A DNA stretch of 34,154 nucleotides from Myxococcales bacterium (GTDB lineage Bacteria; Myxococcota_A; Polyangia; Polyangiales; Houyiibacteriaceae): assembly GCA_019637115.1 (NCBI GenBank), contig JAHBWH010000083.1, positions 1 through 34,154 of the forward strand. The letters are read 5' to 3'. A program made the translations under genes and the position numbers. The notes under the pieces were generated by a model. It saw only the letters and a list, made by a program, of their open reading frames with translations, was not told where the DNA came from and ran no database searches. This document shows, piece after piece, positions 21,515-30,426 of this stretch (its first letter is position 1; the number at the start of each line of letters is the position of its first letter).

Positions 21515-22646
21515 ATGCCGATCTCGGTTGGTGAGACCCGCGATGTGCTCGCGGACCTCGCCCAGCGCCTCGATGCGCTGGGGAGGTATCTTTGACGTCG
21601 ATGGCCTGAGACACGAGGTCGATCGCCTCACGAACCTCTCGGTTCGCGAGGGTTTCTGGGACAAGCGCGAAGAAGCCGAGAAGCTGATGCGCGACCGCGC
21701 GCGCGCCGAGGAGACGGTCCTGACCTGGGACCGGCTCAAGAGCGACGTGCAGGGGCTCGACGAGCTCTTGCAGATGAGCGACGGCGACGACGACGAGCTC
21801 GACGAGCTGGTCGAGCAGGTGCCCGAGCTCGAGAAGGGCGTCCGCCAGCTCGAGCTGCAGCGAATGCTGCTGCCCGACGACGACCAGGACGCCATCCTGT
21901 CGGTCAACGCCGGCGCTGGCGGCACCGACGCTCAGGACTGGGCGGAGATGCTCCTGCGCATGTACCAGCGCTGGTGCGAGAAACGCGGCTATAAGGTCGA
22001 GATGCAGGACCTCTCGCGCACCGAGGTCGGCATCGCGAGCGCCTCGATGCTCGTCAAGGGGCCGAACGCCTACGGCTTCTTGCGGGCCGAGAACGGCGTG
22101 CACCGCCTCATCCGCGTCTCCCGCTTCAGCGGTCGACGCGAGACGAGCTTCGTCGCCGTCAGCGTCGTGCCGGATCTCGACGACACGGTCGAGGTCGACA
22201 TGCAGGAGAAGGACCTCGAGATCTCCGTGATGCGCTCGGGCGGGGCGGGCGGTCAGCACGTCAACCGGACCGAGTCCGCCGTGCGCATCGTCCACAAGCC
22301 GACCGGCTTCACCGTCCGCTCCGACAGCGAACGCTCGCAGCACCAGAACCGCGAGCAGGCGATGCAGCGCCTGCGCGGCTTGCTCTACGAGAAGCAGCGC
22401 CGGGAACAAGAGGCCGCCTTCGAAGAGGCCTTCATGAGCGACCAGGGCGAGATCGCCTTCGGCAGCCAAGCGCGCACCTACACCCTCCACCCCTACAAGA
22501 TGGTGAAGGACGAGCGCACCGAGATGAAGGTCGGCAACGCCGAGGCCGTGCTCGACGGTGACCTCGACGGCCTGATGGAGAGCTACCTCCTGATGACGGC
22601 CGACAAACGAAAAGAGAAGAAGTCCGCGGACGCGGCGAAGAGATGA
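21515..22646 (+). CDS. prfB: Peptide chain release factor 2 with programmed +1 frameshift
   Basis: RF2 ends translation at UGA and UAA. The ATG at 21515 opens a 26-codon frame ending at TGA (21593-21595) inside CTTTGAC, preceded at classical spacing by a Shine-Dalgarno-like GGGGAGG (21580-21586). Skipping one T continues the frame from GAC at 21594 to 22646, so the coding join is 21515-21592 plus 21594-22646, 376 residues. This is the known autoregulatory site of prfB. The catalytic GGQ motif is present ([16 protein letters not shown]). Unusually, the segment holding the SPF stop-recognition tripeptide reads [13 protein letters not shown], with Arg in place of Pro and about two residues missing compared with E. 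coli. It precedes lysS, a widely conserved neighbour. Confidence 0.95.
21580..21596 (+). promoter_or_regulatory. prfB recoding site
   Basis: GGGGAGGTATCTTTGAC contains an internal Shine-Dalgarno-like GGAGG three bases before the CTT slippery codon, followed by in-frame TGA and C. This is the arrangement known to drive +1 frameshifting when RF2 is scarce. Confidence 0.93.
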
Positions 22647-22751
22647 GCCCGGTCGGGCGTTCCCACCCCGGAGCGGCCCGACGTCCGGCTTCCCACGTTC
22701 CCCCCTGACCTGCCCCGCCGCGGCGTGGGCTTCCGGAACCGAGACCGAGCC

Positions 22752-24386
22752 ATGGCGAGCGAAGACGAGCTCCGCGACGCGCGACGCGCGAAGATCCCCA
22801 CCCTCGAGGCAGCGGGCACCCGCGCCTTCCCCAACGACTTCCGCGTGAACGAGGCGATGGAGTCGCGCCGCCGCGAGGTCGTCGACCTCGCGCTCGGCGA
22901 CGCGGAGAACCGCGAGGGGCTCCCCGAGGAAGGCGCGCTCGAGGGCGGAGAGCCCGAGACGTGGGTCTACGGCCGCGTCATCGCCAAGCGCGGGCCCTTC
23001 GTCGTCATCCGGACCCCCTACGGCGACGTCCAGGCACTCGTCCGGGCCAAGGACAGCAAGGACGTCGCGAGCCCCCTCTCGGCCGACGAGCAGCGCATCG
23101 CGCAGACGCTCGACCTCGCCGACCACATCGCCGTCCGGGGCCCCCTCGTGCGCACGCGCACCGGCGAGCTCGCGGTGCGCGCCCACGCCTACCGCCACCT
23201 CGGCAAGGCGATGCTCCCCCCGCCCGCCAAATGGCACGGCCTCAAGGACGTCGAGAAGCGCTACCGCGAGCGCTACGTCGACCTCTGGGCGAACCCCGAC
23301 GTCAGCCGCGTCTTCCGCGCGCGCTCGCTCATCGTCCAGACGCTGCGCCGCGAGCTCGACCAGCGCGGCTTCCTCGAGGTCGAGACGCCGCTCCTGCACA
23401 CCGTGCGGGGCGGCGCGACCGCCAAGCCCTTCCACACCCACCACAACGCGCTCGACCTCGACCTCGTCCTGCGCATCGCCCCCGAGCTCTACCTCAAGCG
23501 CCTGCTCGTCGGCGGCCTCGACCGCGTCTACGAGATCGGCCGCAACCTCCGCAACGAGGGCATCAGCACCCGGCACAACCCGGAGTTCACGATGCTCGAG
23601 TTCTACCAGGCCTACGCGACCTACGAAGACCTGATGGACCTCGCCGAGTCGATGCTCAAGGCCGTCGACGCGGCGGTGCGCGCGAGCTTCCCCGATGGCT
23701 TCCACGGCGAGGACGCTCCCGAGCGCCCCTTCGACCTGCAGGCCGCGTGGCGCCGCGTGCCGATGCGTCAGGCGCTCGAGGACGGCGCCCGCGCCGCGGG
23801 CCTCGAGCTCGATCGGGCGACGATCGACGACGAAGCCGCGCTCGCGGCCTTCGCCAGGTCGCTCACGGGCATCGGGGAGCACGACCGCAAGGTGCTCGCG
23901 AAGTGCCGCACGCACGGCGACCGCGTCTTCGCGCTCTACGAGCTCCTCGCCGAGCCGCGGCTGACCGAGCTCTACCGCACCGAGGACGGCGCCTACAGCG
24001 TGCCGGTCTTCATCACCGAGTACCCCTTCGAGGTCAGCCCGCTCGCGCGCAAGAACGACGCGGACCCGCGCTGGGTCGACCGCTTCGAGCTCTTCGTCGA
24101 GGGCCGCGAGATCGCCAACGCCTTCAGCGAGCTCAACGACCCGGACGACCAAGCCGAGCGCTTCCGCGCCCAGCTCGACAACCGCGAGAGCGGTGACGAG
24201 GAGGCGATGGACTTCGACGCCGACTACATCCGCGCGCTCTCGGTGGGCATGCCGCCCGCCGCGGGCTTCGGGCTCGGGGTCGACCGGCTCGTGATGATGC
24301 TCTGCGAGCAGGCCTCGATCCGCGACGTGCTGCTCTTCCCCTTGCTGCGTCCCGAGGCCCCCCGCGCGGGCGACGACGAAGACTGA
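22752..24386 (+). CDS. lysS: Lysyl-tRNA synthetase (class II)
   Basis: Charges tRNA-Lys. The 544-residue protein has an N-terminal OB-fold anticodon-binding region (VYGRVIAKRGPFVVIRTPYGDVQALV) and the class II core: RYRERYVDLWANPDV, motif 2 in NLRNEGISTRHNPEFTMLE, and motif 3 in GFGLGVDRLVMMLCEQASIR, ending in DVLLFPLLRPE. I choose the ATG at 22752; a GTG nine codons upstream is open but gives no recognisable extra sequence. The segment at about residues 310-400 is somewhat expanded. It follows prfB by 105 bases, where a small GCCCG/CGGGC hairpin lies, and precedes the permease gene by 5 bases. Confidence 0.96.
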   Translation: MASEDELRDARRAKIPTLEAAGTRAFPNDFRVNEAMESRRREVVDLALGDAENREGLPEEGALEGGEPETWVYGRVIAKRGPFVVIRTPYGDVQALVRAKDSKDVASPLSADEQRIAQTLDLADHIAVRGPLVRTRTGELAVRAHAYRHLGKAMLPPPAKWHGLKDVEKRYRERYVDLWANPDVSRVFRARSLIVQTLRRELDQRGFLEVETPLLHTVRGGATAKPFHTHHNALDLDLVLRIAPELYLKRLLVGGLDRVYEIGRNLRNEGISTRHNPEFTMLEFYQAYATYEDLMDLAESMLKAVDAAVRASFPDGFHGEDAPERPFDLQAAWRRVPMRQALEDGARAAGLELDRATIDDEAALAAFARSLTGIGEHDRKVLAKCRTHGDRVFALYELLAEPRLTELYRTEDGAYSVPVFITEYPFEVSPLARKNDADPRWVDRFELFVEGREIANAFSELNDPDDQAERFRAQLDNRESGDEEAMDFDADYIRALSVGMPPAAGFGLGVDRLVMMLCEQASIRDVLLFPLLRPEAPRAGDDED

Positions 24387-24391
24387 GCCAC

Positions 24392-26743
24392 GTGAAGGCC
24401 TGGCACCACCTCGCCCTCGGCGGCCTCGTCGTCCTGCTCGGAGTGGGCGCCGCCGGCGCGTGCTTCACCTTCGACCAGCTCACCTGGATGCTCGTCGCGT
24501 GGGCGCTCGTCCCCGTGGGGCTCTTGGAGCTCGCGTGGGGCGCGTCCCGCTCGGGCAGCGTTCGGGGCACCCGCACCCGCTACGGCGCGCTGCCGGCCTT
24601 CTACGTCTTCGCGGCGACGGCCCAGCTCGGCAGCGTGATCGCGCTCGGCGTGCTCTGGCCCGAGGTCGTGATGTGGGGCGCGAGCGGCGGCCCGATCCTG
24701 CTCCTGCCCGCGGCACACGTGCTCCTCGTCGCGGTGACGGTGGTCCTCGCCATCCTCACGGTGCGCCGCGGCGCGACGCTCCAGCCGGGCATGAAGGGAC
24801 GCGGCCGCCTGCAGCTCGCAGCGCTCGTGACGATGCTCTCCCTCGCGCTGCAGCACCTGCCGCTCCTCCTGATGGTCGTGGGCGCCGGCGCGGCGATCAC
24901 CTCGGGCTTCAGCTTCACCTACAGCCTCGACGAGGCCCGCCTGGCGCTCGCGGGCGATCTCCAGAACGCCCTACCCTGGCTGGCGCTCGCGAGCGGCGTC
25001 ACGATCGTCGCCGACCTCGTGCTCCGCGCGAGCCTCTGGTACCTGCTGCCCGAGCGCTTCCGGTTCTACTTCTGGCTGCTCTTCGACGCCGCGCTCACCG
25101 TAGGCTTCGCGGTCGCGACCTTCACGCTGCCGCTGCAGCCGCTCGGCCCCGAGCCCGAGGCGCTCGTCGACCCCGTGATCCGGCTCTCGCTCACGGCCGC
25201 CTTCGCGCTGCGCGTCTTCGTCCGGATCCTCCCGCTGCTCATGCAGGGCCTCGAGGCGACCAGCTTCGAGCTGCTCGTCGCCTCGCGCCACCTCCGCGCC
25301 AAGAAGAGCGGCTTCCTCGCGACGATCGGCGGCCTCTCGATCCTAGCCGTCGCCGTCTCGACCGCGATGCTGGTCGGAGTCCTCAGCGTGATGGGCGGCT
25401 TCCGCAACGACCTCAAGCAGAAGATCCTCGGCAACCAAGCGCACATCGTCGTCGACCTGGAGCGCCGCACCTTCGAAGGTTGGGGTCCCCTCATCGAGCA
25501 GATCGAGCGGGTGCCGCACGTCGAGGGGGTGACGCCCTTCGTGACGGGCGAGGTGATGGTCACCTCGGCCACCAACATGGCGGGCGCGGTCTTGCGCGGC
25601 ATCGACCCCGCGACGGTGGGGCGGGTGACGGACCTCGAGCGGAACCTCACGCGCGGTCGGCTCGACTACCTCGTGCACCCCGAGCGCATGCTGGACCTCC
25701 CCCCCGAGGAGCGCCGCTCGATCCTCCCGCTCGACGGCCCGAACGACACCCGCGGCCTCCTCGACGAGATCGCGAACGAGATCAACGACGAGCTCGCGCG
25801 TCAGCGCACCCCGGGACCGACGCCCCCGCGCGAGGTGCCGCCGCCGAGCGAAGGGCTGCGCGAGGCGCTCGGGACCGACCTCGACGAGTTCCTGGTCGAT
25901 CGCCCGGCGAGGACGCCGACCACGCAACCTGCGGCGGACGTCCTGCCCGGCATCATCGTCGGCAAGGAGCTCGCGCGCAGCCTCCGGGTCTACCCCGGCG
26001 ACGAGATCGACGTCATCAGCCCCCTCGGCGAGCTCGGCCCCGCGGGCCCGATGCCCAAGAGCCGCCGCTACCGCGTGGCGGGGGTCTTCTACAGCGGCAT
26101 GTACGAGTTCGACATGAAGCTCGTCTACGTGCTGCTCGAGTCGGGGCAGCGCTTCTTGAGCACGGGCGACGCCGTCAGCGGGATCGAGGTGAAGGTCTCG
26201 AACGTCGACCGCGCCCCCGAGGTCGCGACCGCGATCCGCCGCAGCCTCGTCGAGAGCGGCCGAGACGACCTGCGCGTGCAGGACTGGCAGGAGCTCAACC
26301 GCGGGCTCTTCGGGGCGCTCGCGCTCGAGAAGCTCGCGATGTTCGTCACCCTCGGCATCGCCGTGTTGATCGCGGGGTTCTGCGTCTTCGGCACGCTCAC
26401 GCTGATGGTCCAGGAGAAGAGCCGCGAGGTGGGCATCCTCTTCGCGATGGGCACGACGCGGTCCGCGATCGTCCGCGTCTTCATCGTCGAGGGGCTCCTC
26501 ATCGGCCTCTATGGCGCGGTGCTCGGGTTAGGGCTCGGGTACCTCGTGACCTTCGTCTTCGAGCACTTCGGCTTCCGCCTCAACCCGGAGGTCTATTACA
26601 TCGATCGCCTCCCCGTGAACGTCGATCCCGTCGAGTTCACCGCCGTCGGCCTCGTCGCCCTCGGCGTCTGCGTGGTCTCCACGATCTTCCCCGCCGTCCT
26701 CGCGAGCCGCCTCCGGCCCGTGGACGCCCTCCGCCTCGACTGA
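24392..26743 (+). CDS. LolC/E-type lipoprotein-export permease with extra N-terminal membrane domain
   Basis: Inner-membrane subunit expected to release lipoproteins to the periplasmic chaperone, powered by the adjacent LolD-like ATPase. The 783-residue protein is almost twice the usual LolC/E length. Residues about 1-290 form seven or eight hydrophobic helices not found in LolC/E. The standard part starts at SFELLVASRHLRAKKSGFLA (about 291), with its first helix and GGFRNDLKQKILG, a MacB_PCD-like periplasmic domain, and C-terminal FtsX helices (EKSREVGILFAMGTT, and PAVLASRLRPVDALRLD at the end). A polar, proline-rich insert of about 100 residues lies ahead of PGIIVGKELARSLRVYPGD. Start is GTG, five bases after lysS. 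Only one permease is present, so it may act as a homodimer. Confidence 0.9.
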   Translation: MKAWHHLALGGLVVLLGVGAAGACFTFDQLTWMLVAWALVPVGLLELAWGASRSGSVRGTRTRYGALPAFYVFAATAQLGSVIALGVLWPEVVMWGASGGPILLLPAAHVLLVAVTVVLAILTVRRGATLQPGMKGRGRLQLAALVTMLSLALQHLPLLLMVVGAGAAITSGFSFTYSLDEARLALAGDLQNALPWLALASGVTIVADLVLRASLWYLLPERFRFYFWLLFDAALTVGFAVATFTLPLQPLGPEPEALVDPVIRLSLTAAFALRVFVRILPLLMQGLEATSFELLVASRHLRAKKSGFLATIGGLSILAVAVSTAMLVGVLSVMGGFRNDLKQKILGNQAHIVVDLERRTFEGWGPLIEQIERVPHVEGVTPFVTGEVMVTSATNMAGAVLRGIDPATVGRVTDLERNLTRGRLDYLVHPERMLDLPPEERRSILPLDGPNDTRGLLDEIANEINDELARQRTPGPTPPREVPPPSEGLREALGTDLDEFLVDRPARTPTTQPAADVLPGIIVGKELARSLRVYPGDEIDVISPLGELGPAGPMPKSRRYRVAGVFYSGMYEFDMKLVYVLLESGQRFLSTGDAVSGIEVKVSNVDRAPEVATAIRRSLVESGRDDLRVQDWQELNRGLFGALALEKLAMFVTLGIAVLIAGFCVFGTLTLMVQEKSREVGILFAMGTTRSAIVRVFIVEGLLIGLYGAVLGLGLGYLVTFVFEHFGFRLNPEVYYIDRLPVNVDPVEFTAVGLVALGVCVVSTIFPAVLASRLRPVDALRLD

Positions 26744-26782: not shown

Positions 26783-27736
26783 ATGAGCCCGAAACCCGGC
26801 CAGCTTGGCGAGCCCCTCGTCGTCGCCCGCGACGTGAAGAAGACCTTCGTGCACGAGGGCAAGGACGTGGAGGTGCTCCGCGGCGTCGACCTCTCGATCG
26901 GGCGCGGCGAGATGGTCTGCGTCGTCGGCCAGTCGGGCACGGGGAAGAGCACCCTCCTGCACATCCTCGGGACCCTCGATCTACCCACGAGCGGCTCGAT
27001 CACCTACGAGGGCCGCGACGTCACGCGGCTCTCGAGCCGCGAGCTCGCGCTCTTCCGCAACCGCTCGCTCGGCTTCGTCTTCCAGTTCCACCACCTCCTG
27101 CCCGAGTTCGACGCCCTCGAGAACGTGATGATGCCGGGGCTCGTCCAAGGGCGGCCGCGAGGGCCGCTCCGACAGAAGGCCCGCGCGCTCCTCGAGGAGG
27201 TCGGGCTCGCCCACCGGCTGGCCCACCGGCCCGGCGAGCTCAGCGGCGGCGAGCAGCAGCGCGTCGCGCTCGCCCGCGCGCTCGTCCTCGACCCGGCGCT
27301 CGTCCTGGCCGACGAGCCGACCGGCAACCTCGACAGCCGCACGAGCGAGCAGGTGCAGCAGCTCTTCTTCGAGCTCAACGAGCGCCGGGGGACGACCTTC
27401 CTCATCGTCACCCACAGCCGGGACATGGCCGCGCGGATGCCGCGGGTCGTGGCCATGCGTGACGGCCTCATCGAGCGTGACGAGCGGAAGGTCGAGGGTT
27501 ATCGCGACACCGATCGGCGGGCCGAGGCCGCCCTCGAGGCGATCCCGCGCGACGACGAGCCCGCGAGCGTCGACGCGGCGGCCAGCTCGAGCGCCGAGCC
27601 CGCCGACGACTCCGCCTCCGAGGAAGACGACCCGGCGCTCGACCGTACGTCGGCGCAGCGTCCCTCGCCGAAGACGCCCGAGGGAGAACCCACGCCCGAC
27701 GAATCCCCGAACGAAGTCGCTCGGGACCGAGCTTGA
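26783..27736 (+). CDS. lolD: LolD-type ABC transporter ATPase
   Basis: Cytoplasmic ATPase that drives the preceding permease. In 317 residues it has Walker [10 protein letters not shown] (49-57), the Q-loop [13 protein letters not shown], signature LSGGEQQR (153-160), Walker [13 protein letters not shown] (173-184) and the switch His211 (IVTHS). The FHHLLPEF form is characteristic of LolD and MacB-like ATPases. Beyond about residue 235 there is a tail of 80 residues rich in Asp, Glu, Ser and Pro, absent from standard LolD (about 230 residues) and probably disordered. It lies 39 bases after the permease and just before bamA. Confidence 0.92.
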
Positions 27737-27783
27737 CCCCCCTGGACCCCACGGCTATGACGCCGCGGCCCGGACCCCTCGGA

Positions 27784-30426
27784 ATGCGCCACTTCCCTCG
27801 ATTGCTCGCTCTCGTCGCTCTGCTCGTCCTCGGGCACGGGCCGGGGCTCGCGCAGCCTCCCGCCGACGACGAGGAGGACGACGAGGGCGCGAGCGCCACC
27901 GCGGATGCCGACGCGGACGAGGACGACGAGGACGAAGAGGGCGAGCCTCCGCGACGCGCGCCCGGCGCCGCCGAGGGCTTCTACGGCGACCCCTACGACG
28001 ATCAACAAGACGCGGGCCCCACCGCGCCGCGGACGCTCTGTCACGGGCGCATGATCCGCGAGGTCCGCGTCGAGGGCGCGCGCCGCGTGGACGCGGACGA
28101 CGTGCGCGCGACGATGCGCTCGCGCCGCGGCCTGCCCTGCACGGACGAAGAGCTCGCGCGCGACGCGCGGGCGCTCTGGGATCTCGGCTTCTTCGAGGAC
28201 CTCGTCTTCGAGGCCAACCCACGCGGCAACGAGATCGACCTCGTCGTGACCATCCGCGAACGTCCGGCCATCGCGCGGATCCTCTACGAGGGCAACGACG
28301 AGGTCGACGAGGACGACATCGAGAAGAAGGTCACGCTCCGGGAGGGCGCGATCCTGTCGATCCCCGAGGTCCGCGCGCAGATCACGAAGATCCGCGACCT
28401 CTACGCCGAGGAGGGCCACTTCCTCGCGCGCGTCCGCTACGACATCCGCCGCGTCGAGGGGCGCGAGGAGGTCGAGGTCCGCTTCATCATCGACGAGGGC
28501 CCCGAGGTCAGCGTCCGGCGCATCCGCTTCGTCGGCAACCGCAACGTCCCGTCGTCGGAGCTCCTCGGGATCATGCAGACCTCCGAGGTGGGCTTCTTCT
28601 CGTTCATCACGAGCAACCACCACTACAACCGCAACGTCTTCGACGAGGACGTCACGCGCCTGCAGGCCTGGTACTACGACAAGGGCTTCCTCGCGGTCTC
28701 GGTGGGCACGCCCCGCATCGAGCTCACCGCCGACCGGGCCCACATCGACATCACGATCCCGATCGACGAGGGCCCCCGCTTCCGGGTCGGCCGGCTCCGC
28801 GTGCGGGAGGTCGACGAGAGCGGCGCCGAGTCGGAGTCGCTGCGCGACAACCTCCGCGACGAGATCGACCTCGAGAGCGGCGATTGGTTCAACCGCACGC
28901 GCATCGCCCTCGGCATCCAGTCCATCACCCGCATCTACCGCGATCAGGGCTTCGCCTACGTCGACCTGCAGCCCGAGACGGACCTCGACCAAGAGCGCCG
29001 CATCGTCGACATCACGGTGAACATCGAGCGCGGGCCGCCCGTGCGCATCGAGCGCATCAACATCCGCGGCAACTCGAAGACCCGCGACAGCGTGATCCGC
29101 CGCGAGATGACCGCGCACGAGGGCGCGCTCTACAACCAGACCGCGGTCGAGTTCAGCAAGCGCATGATCGAGGCGCTCGGCTACTTCGAGCGCGTCGACC
29201 TCCAGGAGGAGCGCGGCTCGGCGCCGGACCGGATGATCCTCAACATCTCGGTCGTCGAGCGGGCCACGGGCACCTTCCAGGTCGGCGCCGGCTTCTCGTC
29301 GATCGAGCAGTTCATCCTCACGGCGCAGGTCCAGCAGGACAACCTCTTCGGCAACGGCCAGAGCCTCTCGCTGCAGATCCAGCTCTCGGGCATCCGCCAG
29401 CTCATCCAGGTCCGCCTCTTCGAGCCGTGGTTCCTCGGCACGCGCTGGGGCCTCGGCGTCGACGCCTACAAGACCATCCGCCAGTTCATCGACTTCAACC
29501 AGGACACGACCGGCGCCGGCCTGACGCTCGCGCACCCGATCGTCGACCAGCGCCTGCGCTTCTCGCTGAACTACCGCGCCGAGTACGTGTCGATCGCCAC
29601 GCGTACGGGCGGCTTCTTCCAGTCGGGCGGCGGCATCGGCGCCGCGGGCTTCGCGATCTTCCAGCGCACGCCCCTCGCGGGCCTCTTCCGCGACGGCCTC
29701 ACAAGCTCGCTCCGGGCGAGCCTCACCTGGGACAACCGCAACAACCGCCTCTTCCCCTCGGATGGCTGGTTCGCGAGCTACTCCTTCGAGATCGCCGACC
29801 GCTTCCTCGGCTCCGACCAGATCTTCACGCGGCACACGGGCTTCGTCCGCTTCTACCGCGAGCTCTTCAACCTCGGCGCCCAGCGCCCGGTCGTCTTCAA
29901 GGTCAACCTCGAGGGCGGCTACATCTCGAGCCGCGCCGACCTCGGCGTGCCGATCTACGAACGCTTCTACCTCGGCGGCATCTTCAACGTCCGCGGCTTC
30001 CCGTTCTTCGGCCTCGGCCCGCGCGCGGCGATAGGCCGAACCTACGATCCGGGCGCGACGATCCCGCGTCCCGGCAATGGCCAGGCTGGCGGCGTCGCGA
30101 TCGGCGGCAACTTGCAGCTCTTCTACCAAGCCGAGCTCGAGATCCCGATCCTCCCCGAGGTCGGCATCCGCGGCGTGCTCTTCACCGACGGCGGCAACGT
30201 CTGGAACACCGAGGCGCGCCTCTGCCAGGCACCCGAGATCTCGGGTGGCGACAGCTCGACGCGCCCCTGCGGCTTCGACCCGCTCGGCATCCGGAGCTCG
30301 TGGGGCTTCGGCCTCCGCTGGTTCTCCCCCCTCGGCCCGCTCCGCTTCGAGTGGGGCCTGCCGATCGCGCGGCGCTCGTACGAGAGCGCGATCCGCTTCG
30401 AGTTCACGATCGGCAACTCGTTCTGA
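27784..30426 (+). CDS. bamA: Outer membrane protein assembly factor BamA
   Basis: Omp85 protein that folds and inserts beta-barrel proteins into the outer membrane. About 880 residues: a signal peptide (MRHFPRLLALVALLVLG...GLA), a very acidic linker (DDEEDDE... DEDDEDEEGE), five POTRA-like repeats beginning at IREVRVEGARRVDADDVRA and running to about residue 480, and a C-terminal 16-strand barrel. The barrel has the conserved loop-6 VRGF motif and ends in a beta-signal FEFTIGNSF with terminal Phe. I chose the ATG at 27784 because it gives a compact signal peptide; in-frame alternatives are ATG 27757 and TTG 27733. It sits between lolD and skp, fitting one envelope-biogenesis unit. Confidence 0.95.
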   Translation: MRHFPRLLALVALLVLGHGPGLAQPPADDEEDDEGASATADADADEDDEDEEGEPPRRAPGAAEGFYGDPYDDQQDAGPTAPRTLCHGRMIREVRVEGARRVDADDVRATMRSRRGLPCTDEELARDARALWDLGFFEDLVFEANPRGNEIDLVVTIRERPAIARILYEGNDEVDEDDIEKKVTLREGAILSIPEVRAQITKIRDLYAEEGHFLARVRYDIRRVEGREEVEVRFIIDEGPEVSVRRIRFVGNRNVPSSELLGIMQTSEVGFFSFITSNHHYNRNVFDEDVTRLQAWYYDKGFLAVSVGTPRIELTADRAHIDITIPIDEGPRFRVGRLRVREVDESGAESESLRDNLRDEIDLESGDWFNRTRIALGIQSITRIYRDQGFAYVDLQPETDLDQERRIVDITVNIERGPPVRIERINIRGNSKTRDSVIRREMTAHEGALYNQTAVEFSKRMIEALGYFERVDLQEERGSAPDRMILNISVVERATGTFQVGAGFSSIEQFILTAQVQQDNLFGNGQSLSLQIQLSGIRQLIQVRLFEPWFLGTRWGLGVDAYKTIRQFIDFNQDTTGAGLTLAHPIVDQRLRFSLNYRAEYVSIATRTGGFFQSGGGIGAAGFAIFQRTPLAGLFRDGLTSSLRASLTWDNRNNRLFPSDGWFASYSFEIADRFLGSDQIFTRHTGFVRFYRELFNLGAQRPVVFKVNLEGGYISSRADLGVPIYERFYLGGIFNVRGFPFFGLGPRAAIGRTYDPGATIPRPGNGQAGGVAIGGNLQLFYQAELEIPILPEVGIRGVLFTDGGNVWNTEARLCQAPEISGGDSSTRPCGFDPLGIRSSWGFGLRWFSPLGPLRFEWGLPIARRSYESAIRFEFTIGNSF

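Follow-up and report, generated by a model that had tools for sequence, protein, structure and literature searches.

A multi-helix membrane domain without a known family is fused to the LolF-type permease of a predicted lipoprotein exporter in a clade of Myxococcota

In well-studied bacteria Lol exporters are indispensable, and they are drug targets; their permeases have been described as small, with four helices. A single permease gene beside lolD, the LolDF layout, is common in most diderms outside some gammaproteobacteria, where split permease genes of this kind have been noted (PMC11784454). Two parts of the permease are of particular relevance here: TM1 and TM2, which have a role in lifting the periplasmic domains (PMC12846838), and the Hook loop, which recruits LolA (PMC10865981). 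No paper on the phylogeny of LolC/LolE in Myxococcota was found in a literature search that had most subscription journals outside its reach. We analysed a stretch of 34,154 nucleotides from a Myxococcales bacterium (contig JAHBWH010000083.1; hereafter, the window), in which a permease of the LolF/LolC-E type is extended at its N-terminus.

The permease gene (24392-26743; all features described here are on the plus strand) is a single open frame of 783 codons with a GTG start, in which residues 1-290 form the extra domain and residues 291-783 the core. The stop codon of lysS, encoding lysyl-tRNA synthetase (22725-24386), lies 5 bases upstream of the permease start. Downstream are lolD, encoding the exporter ATPase (26783-27736), and bamA, encoding a protein with five POTRA domains and an Omp85 barrel (27733-30426). 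LolD matches TIGR02211 with an E value of 2.1e-86 and 289 bits, slightly under the cut-off of 307.75. The plus-strand genes of the window are prfB, lysS, the permease gene, lolD, bamA, an ompH/skp gene and an outer-membrane efflux gene; the order prfB-lysS-lolF-lolD-bamA is conserved among homologous loci, and a lolC-lolD-lolE operon of the E. coli type is absent at the locus. Promoter and terminator scans near the start of the permease gene found nothing. In prfB, a canonical programmed +1 frameshift site (GGGAGG TAT CTT TGA C) is present at 21515-21600, and because of this site the gene probably starts at the ATG at 21515 rather than at the TTG at 21528 given in a mechanical list of open reading frames.

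The core has four helices and an FtsX C-terminus, and a MacB-like periplasmic domain separates TM1 from TM2. TM1 and its periplasmic extension span 25310-25435 in the AlphaFold2 model, and TM2-TM4, the FtsX domain, span 26300-26707 according to both Pfam and AlphaFold2. Alignment with LolF places a Hook-like LolA-binding loop, SPLGELGPAGPMPKSRR, at residues 543-559 (26018-26068). The closest PDB relative of the core by sequence is LolF (chain 9w37, E 9.7e-50), and the closest by fold are LolC/LolE, followed by MacB. The LolCE model TIGR02212 matches both halves of the core (E 7.5e-88) with 295 bits against a curated cut-off of 362, and an extension-free Myxococcota homologue likewise falls under that cut-off (360.4). 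Three LolA-like genes are present in the genome, with LolA matches over cut-off. Taken together, these comparisons suggest that the core is a LolF-type permease of a predicted LolDF-type lipoprotein exporter. The polar insert of about 100 residues that an initial annotation of the window had placed in the periplasmic domain is real: it covers 90 residues here (429-518; 25676-25945), is modelled with low confidence and, counted in alignment columns, has between 39 and 122 residues in relatives.

That annotation also described about 290 residues with seven or eight hydrophobic segments ahead of the core. Eight such segments were found in residues 1-290 (24392-25261), in full support of the proposed anatomy, in which a multi-helix domain is fused to the N-terminus of an otherwise standard LolC/E core. 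AlphaFold2 predicts eight N-terminal helices both for the domain alone (pLDDT 88, pTM 0.73) and for the whole protein (pLDDT 82.6), at residues 3-26, 30-54, 67-87, 104-129, 137-171, 188-218, 221-245 and 255-288. Loop charges obey the positive-inside rule for an N-in/C-in arrangement; with the N-terminus in the cytoplasm, TM8 would also end there and continue through a cytoplasmic elbow helix (residues 292-302, including LLVASRHLR; 25265-25297) into core TM1. The eight helices are not equally conserved. Only 6 of the 36 aligned homologues have a stretch comparable to TM1-TM2 (24398-24553), the majority of homologues starting near TM3 and having about 240 residues. TM3-TM6 (24590-25045) include a cytoplasmic GRGR loop at residues 136-139, and the TM7-TM8 hairpin (25052-25255) is the best-conserved part of the domain.

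The residues common to the 36 aligned extensions are R224, W228, D232, R264, R274, R278 and E288 in the hairpin, together with G136, R137, R139, W216 and P247. D232 in TM7 and R274 in TM8 are invariant (36/36) and, besides a few near-invariant Arg, Glu and Trp residues, are the sole invariant polar residues; they lie at about equal residue distance from the cytoplasmic ends of their helices. Given this invariance and similar depth, a buried salt bridge between Asp232 and Arg274 may lock the TM7-TM8 hairpin; the invariant charges could equally form a ligand or partner site. Outside these positions the domain changes fast: pN is 0.38-0.44 in the extra domain versus 0.14-0.22 in the core, which amounts to a two- to threefold excess of non-synonymous differences. 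A domain so much less constrained than the core suits a scaffold with few fixed contacts rather than an enzyme.

An extension of this size could in principle be an artefact, if the upstream frame were untranslated and the true protein started near residue 284-290, or if a frame error had joined two genes. The ATG at residue 284 would indeed yield a LolF of normal length. However, the coding signature runs through the whole frame: GC content at the three codon positions is 0.74/0.48/0.97 in the extra domain versus 0.70/0.43/0.96 in the core, in the same frame, with third-position values of 0.972 and 0.961, respectively. The fusion is not peculiar to this genome. The domain occurs in 54 of the 183 genomes of the order, where, contig-edge cases aside, it shares one reading frame with the permease. 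Where lysS lies upstream, nearly all homologous frames begin at the lysS stop or no more than a few codons away from it, helices and residues are conserved across the 36 aligned homologues, and a Met at window residues 283-285, where the internal start would lie, is present in only 12 of them. Because of the uniform third-position GC, the lysS-coupled starts, the conserved residues and the rarity of that Met, both a frame error and an exclusively internal start are excluded; we consider an artefact of either kind exceedingly improbable. A minor short form initiated at the internal ATG may be made alongside the long form.

Residues 1-290 gave no match in Pfam or NCBIfam, matches to MacB_PCD, FtsX and LolCE being confined to residues 291-783. 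A PDB sequence search with a profile of the domain returned nothing up to an E value of 10, and a Foldseek search with the domain model gave no match below E 0.17. VIA-align returned helical bundles only, the best of which (Z 11.2) is a designed protein and possibly reflects just a common arrangement. The missing fold match does not establish a new fold. Two Pfam matches, to MatC_N (E 0.0003) and SecY (E 0.009), each occurred in one of the 36 members and were set aside as chance resemblance between membrane proteins. A domain of the MprF/LysX type was considered since lysS adjoins the permease gene; there was no Pfam match to such a domain in the 36 members, in single-sequence scans that can miss distant kin, and the fold search was also without a clear match.

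The distribution of the domain was examined using a profile of 16 extensions, searched against 183 genomes of the order with a threshold of E <= 0.01. The profile matched in 83 genomes, 54 of them over the domain, or over part of it at contig ends; the remaining matches, mostly in f2, cover only its last part. The 54 genomes fall in families f1, f3, f5, f7 and f56-f60, including 10 genomes of f5, 7 of f7, and 30 of 33 genomes of the window's own family, the other three of which are 66-82% complete. Outside the order, nothing convincing was found in a 377-genome sample of the phylum. On a tree built with FastTree, and hence rough, from the cores alone with extensions left out, the permeases that carry the domain group together as a single clade (54 rows, support 99). 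No stand-alone copy of the domain was found in the 183 genomes of the order or the 377-genome sample, where weak matches in other families had E values of 0.001-0.01. Two apparent stand-alone copies (G295 C115 and G301 C38) stop at contig edges and resemble halves of the same fused gene, and a third candidate (G127, locus L093) is a chance match in an unrelated reading frame.

We also surveyed N-terminal extensions at 80 loci from named genomes together with loci from whole-genome searches. LysS-linked LolF proteins at these loci carry extensions of widely differing size. LolF of family f21 has none; some families have about 70 residues, forming a helix pair between the elbow and TM1; in Polyangiaceae, Nannocystis and Minicystis the extension of LolF has about 92-150 residues, in which two to three helices are predicted; and the window-type clade has 6-8 helices. 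The Polyangiaceae-type proteins (e.g. L079, and L199 from Minicystis rosea) are encoded at the same kind of locus and have a related TM7-TM8 hairpin, but lack most of the upstream helices, and inspection of the listed sequences by eye does not reveal the Asp232/Arg274 pair. Comparison of the two hairpins by hhalign gave E values of 2e-10 with the elbow and 4e-5 without it, the elbow-free comparison scoring 36, whereas no shuffled or reversed control exceeded 19.

Two further types carry large modules of other kinds. Labilithrix-type LolF proteins (L083, L163, L167 and L177) are likewise encoded at this kind of locus and have 296-373 N-terminal residues with weak similarity to GPDPase_memb/DUF975. 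They share the hairpin with the Polyangiaceae type (E 3.9e-15), in addition to a domain of their own, and are nested on the core tree among the Polyangiaceae-type clade with shorter extensions. Their upstream module is unrelated by profile to the window domain, with only the last helix and elbow aligning. This module, another fusion on the same gene, was seen at L083, L087, L163, L167, L173 and L177. Anaeromyxobacter-type LolF proteins (L205 and L207), again at the same kind of locus, begin with a membrane module of some 225 residues and about five helices, show no profile similarity to the window domain (hhalign E 0.06), and have a further helix inserted between the elbow and core TM1; they are placed elsewhere on the core tree. 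Loci with this module are L197, L202, L205, L207, L208, L209 and L212. A LolF protein of family f41 (L089:2050-4233), on a long branch, has about 230 N-terminal residues with five predicted helices. A Myxococcota-like extended LolF beside LysS and LolD was also seen in a record titled 'Euryarchaeota archaeon' (L219, JABDBI010000022.1), which is probably a misnamed or contaminated assembly. The large-extension class requires at least 8 label changes on starred branches of the core tree, indicating that large modules arose more than once. As judged from these comparisons, different N-terminal membrane modules appear to have been gained several times by the same Myxococcota gene.

With regard to function, we lean modestly towards a LolDF-type permease with a lineage-specific accessory membrane domain that acts as a scaffold on the elbow and TM1 near LolD. 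The exporter presumably works as LolDF does, with TM1 and TM2 raising the periplasmic domains while cargo would leave the membrane at the permease interface and pass to LolA at the Hook. The extra domain ends in the TM7-TM8 hairpin, which the elbow would connect, on the cytoplasmic side near LolD, directly to core TM1; this helix and one other bear the periplasmic domain. Given this direct connection, the extra domain is probably arranged around TM1 and the elbow, close to LolD. A scaffold in this position would shape cargo entry or the coupling of ATP use to extraction, and the other helices, which vary fast, probably face lipid or a lineage-specific partner. The initial annotation had suggested that the domain regulates the exporter, binds another envelope factor, or processes lipoproteins in the membrane, and the last of these fares worst. 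Lgt and Lnt are themselves multi-helix proteins, so a multi-helix domain fused to an exporter invites the comparison. However, there is no Pfam or NCBIfam match in the window domain and only isolated weak ones among the 36 members, no Lgt, LspA or Lnt model matches the window protein or those members, the domain evolves fast, and conservation amounts to one invariant Asp with no conserved His, Cys or Ser. Since dedicated Lnt (2 strong matches), Lgt (3) and LspA (1) genes lie elsewhere in the genome and no catalytic pattern is conserved, enzymatic processing of lipoproteins by the extra domain is very unlikely. Lnt and Lgt are each encoded more than once in this genome, the strong Lnt matches lying on C290 and C379 and the Lgt matches on C17, C383 and C157.

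The domain might instead be a docking site through which the exporter recruits another inner-membrane or envelope factor, such as Lnt or a protein specific to the lineage. A membrane module that is lineage-specific, strictly fused and marked by invariant charges would fit such a role, as would the unrelated modules on the same gene in different clades, which is how swappable docking parts would look. No conserved partner gene is seen at the locus beyond lysS, lolD, bamA and prfB, however, and these four are present with or without the domain; we regard docking as rather unlikely. A separate question, compatible with the scaffold explanation, is whether the extended protein works with a second permease. 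The initial annotation had also remarked on the lone permease gene beside LolD. With a LolF-type core this is ordinary, being the usual LolDF layout (PMC11784454), and the count holds locally but not for the genome, which encodes a second LolC/E-type permease without an extension (G000 C72:2985-4718; L094:2985-4718). This orphan has no lolD alongside, an altered Hook and a long acidic periplasmic insert. Orphans are present in 36 of 37 relatives, the exception being a genome that is 81% complete, and form a separate clade on the core tree (five examples, support 100). Given the retention of this extension-free protein, a heterodimer in which the two permeases pair like LolC with LolE is possible. 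The missing lolD and altered Hook suggest that the two differ as LolC and LolE do, and there is precedent in the split genes of some gammaproteobacteria (PMC11784454). Interpretation is tempered by the extended protein scoring equally for the LolC and LolE models and having a LolF-type Hook, and by the lack of a genomic link between the two permease genes; we consider the heterodimer a serious possibility that falls short of probable.

The fused domain, without a known family and on an ordinary LolF-type core, is real. A domain of 6-8 helices is fused to a Lol permease across a whole Myxococcota clade; other clades have different modules at the same gene, so the phenomenon is wider than the single case first annotated. 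If functional, such domains would offer a route for tuning lipoprotein export or for linking export to other work of the envelope. A more sweeping picture, which we offer as speculation and think improbable, is that the Myxococcota exporter is a modular platform, with unrelated multi-helix domains fused repeatedly to the LolF elbow/TM1 at one syntenic gene, and with the extended permease paired with the orphan in an asymmetric exporter in which cargo selection or the docking of a partner falls to the added domain.

Among known systems, the MacB, BceB and YbbP type VII exporters also have an FtsX-like core and some have extra helices, but their extra parts are of other kinds, namely a fused ATPase or extra FtsX repeats, and none of them stood out as a fold match to the extra domain. 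E. coli LolC/LolE (PDB 7arh, 9rld) share the core fold but have no N-terminal extension, and are encoded in an operon of a type that the window lacks. A close parallel is with LolF of LolDF exporters (PDB 9w37, 9w35, 9w2w), which has the same four-helix core, large periplasmic domain between TM1 and TM2, Hook and neighbouring lolD. One difference is size: LolF has about 410 residues and four helices, whereas the window protein adds eight preceding helices, and its periplasmic domain is split by the polar insert.
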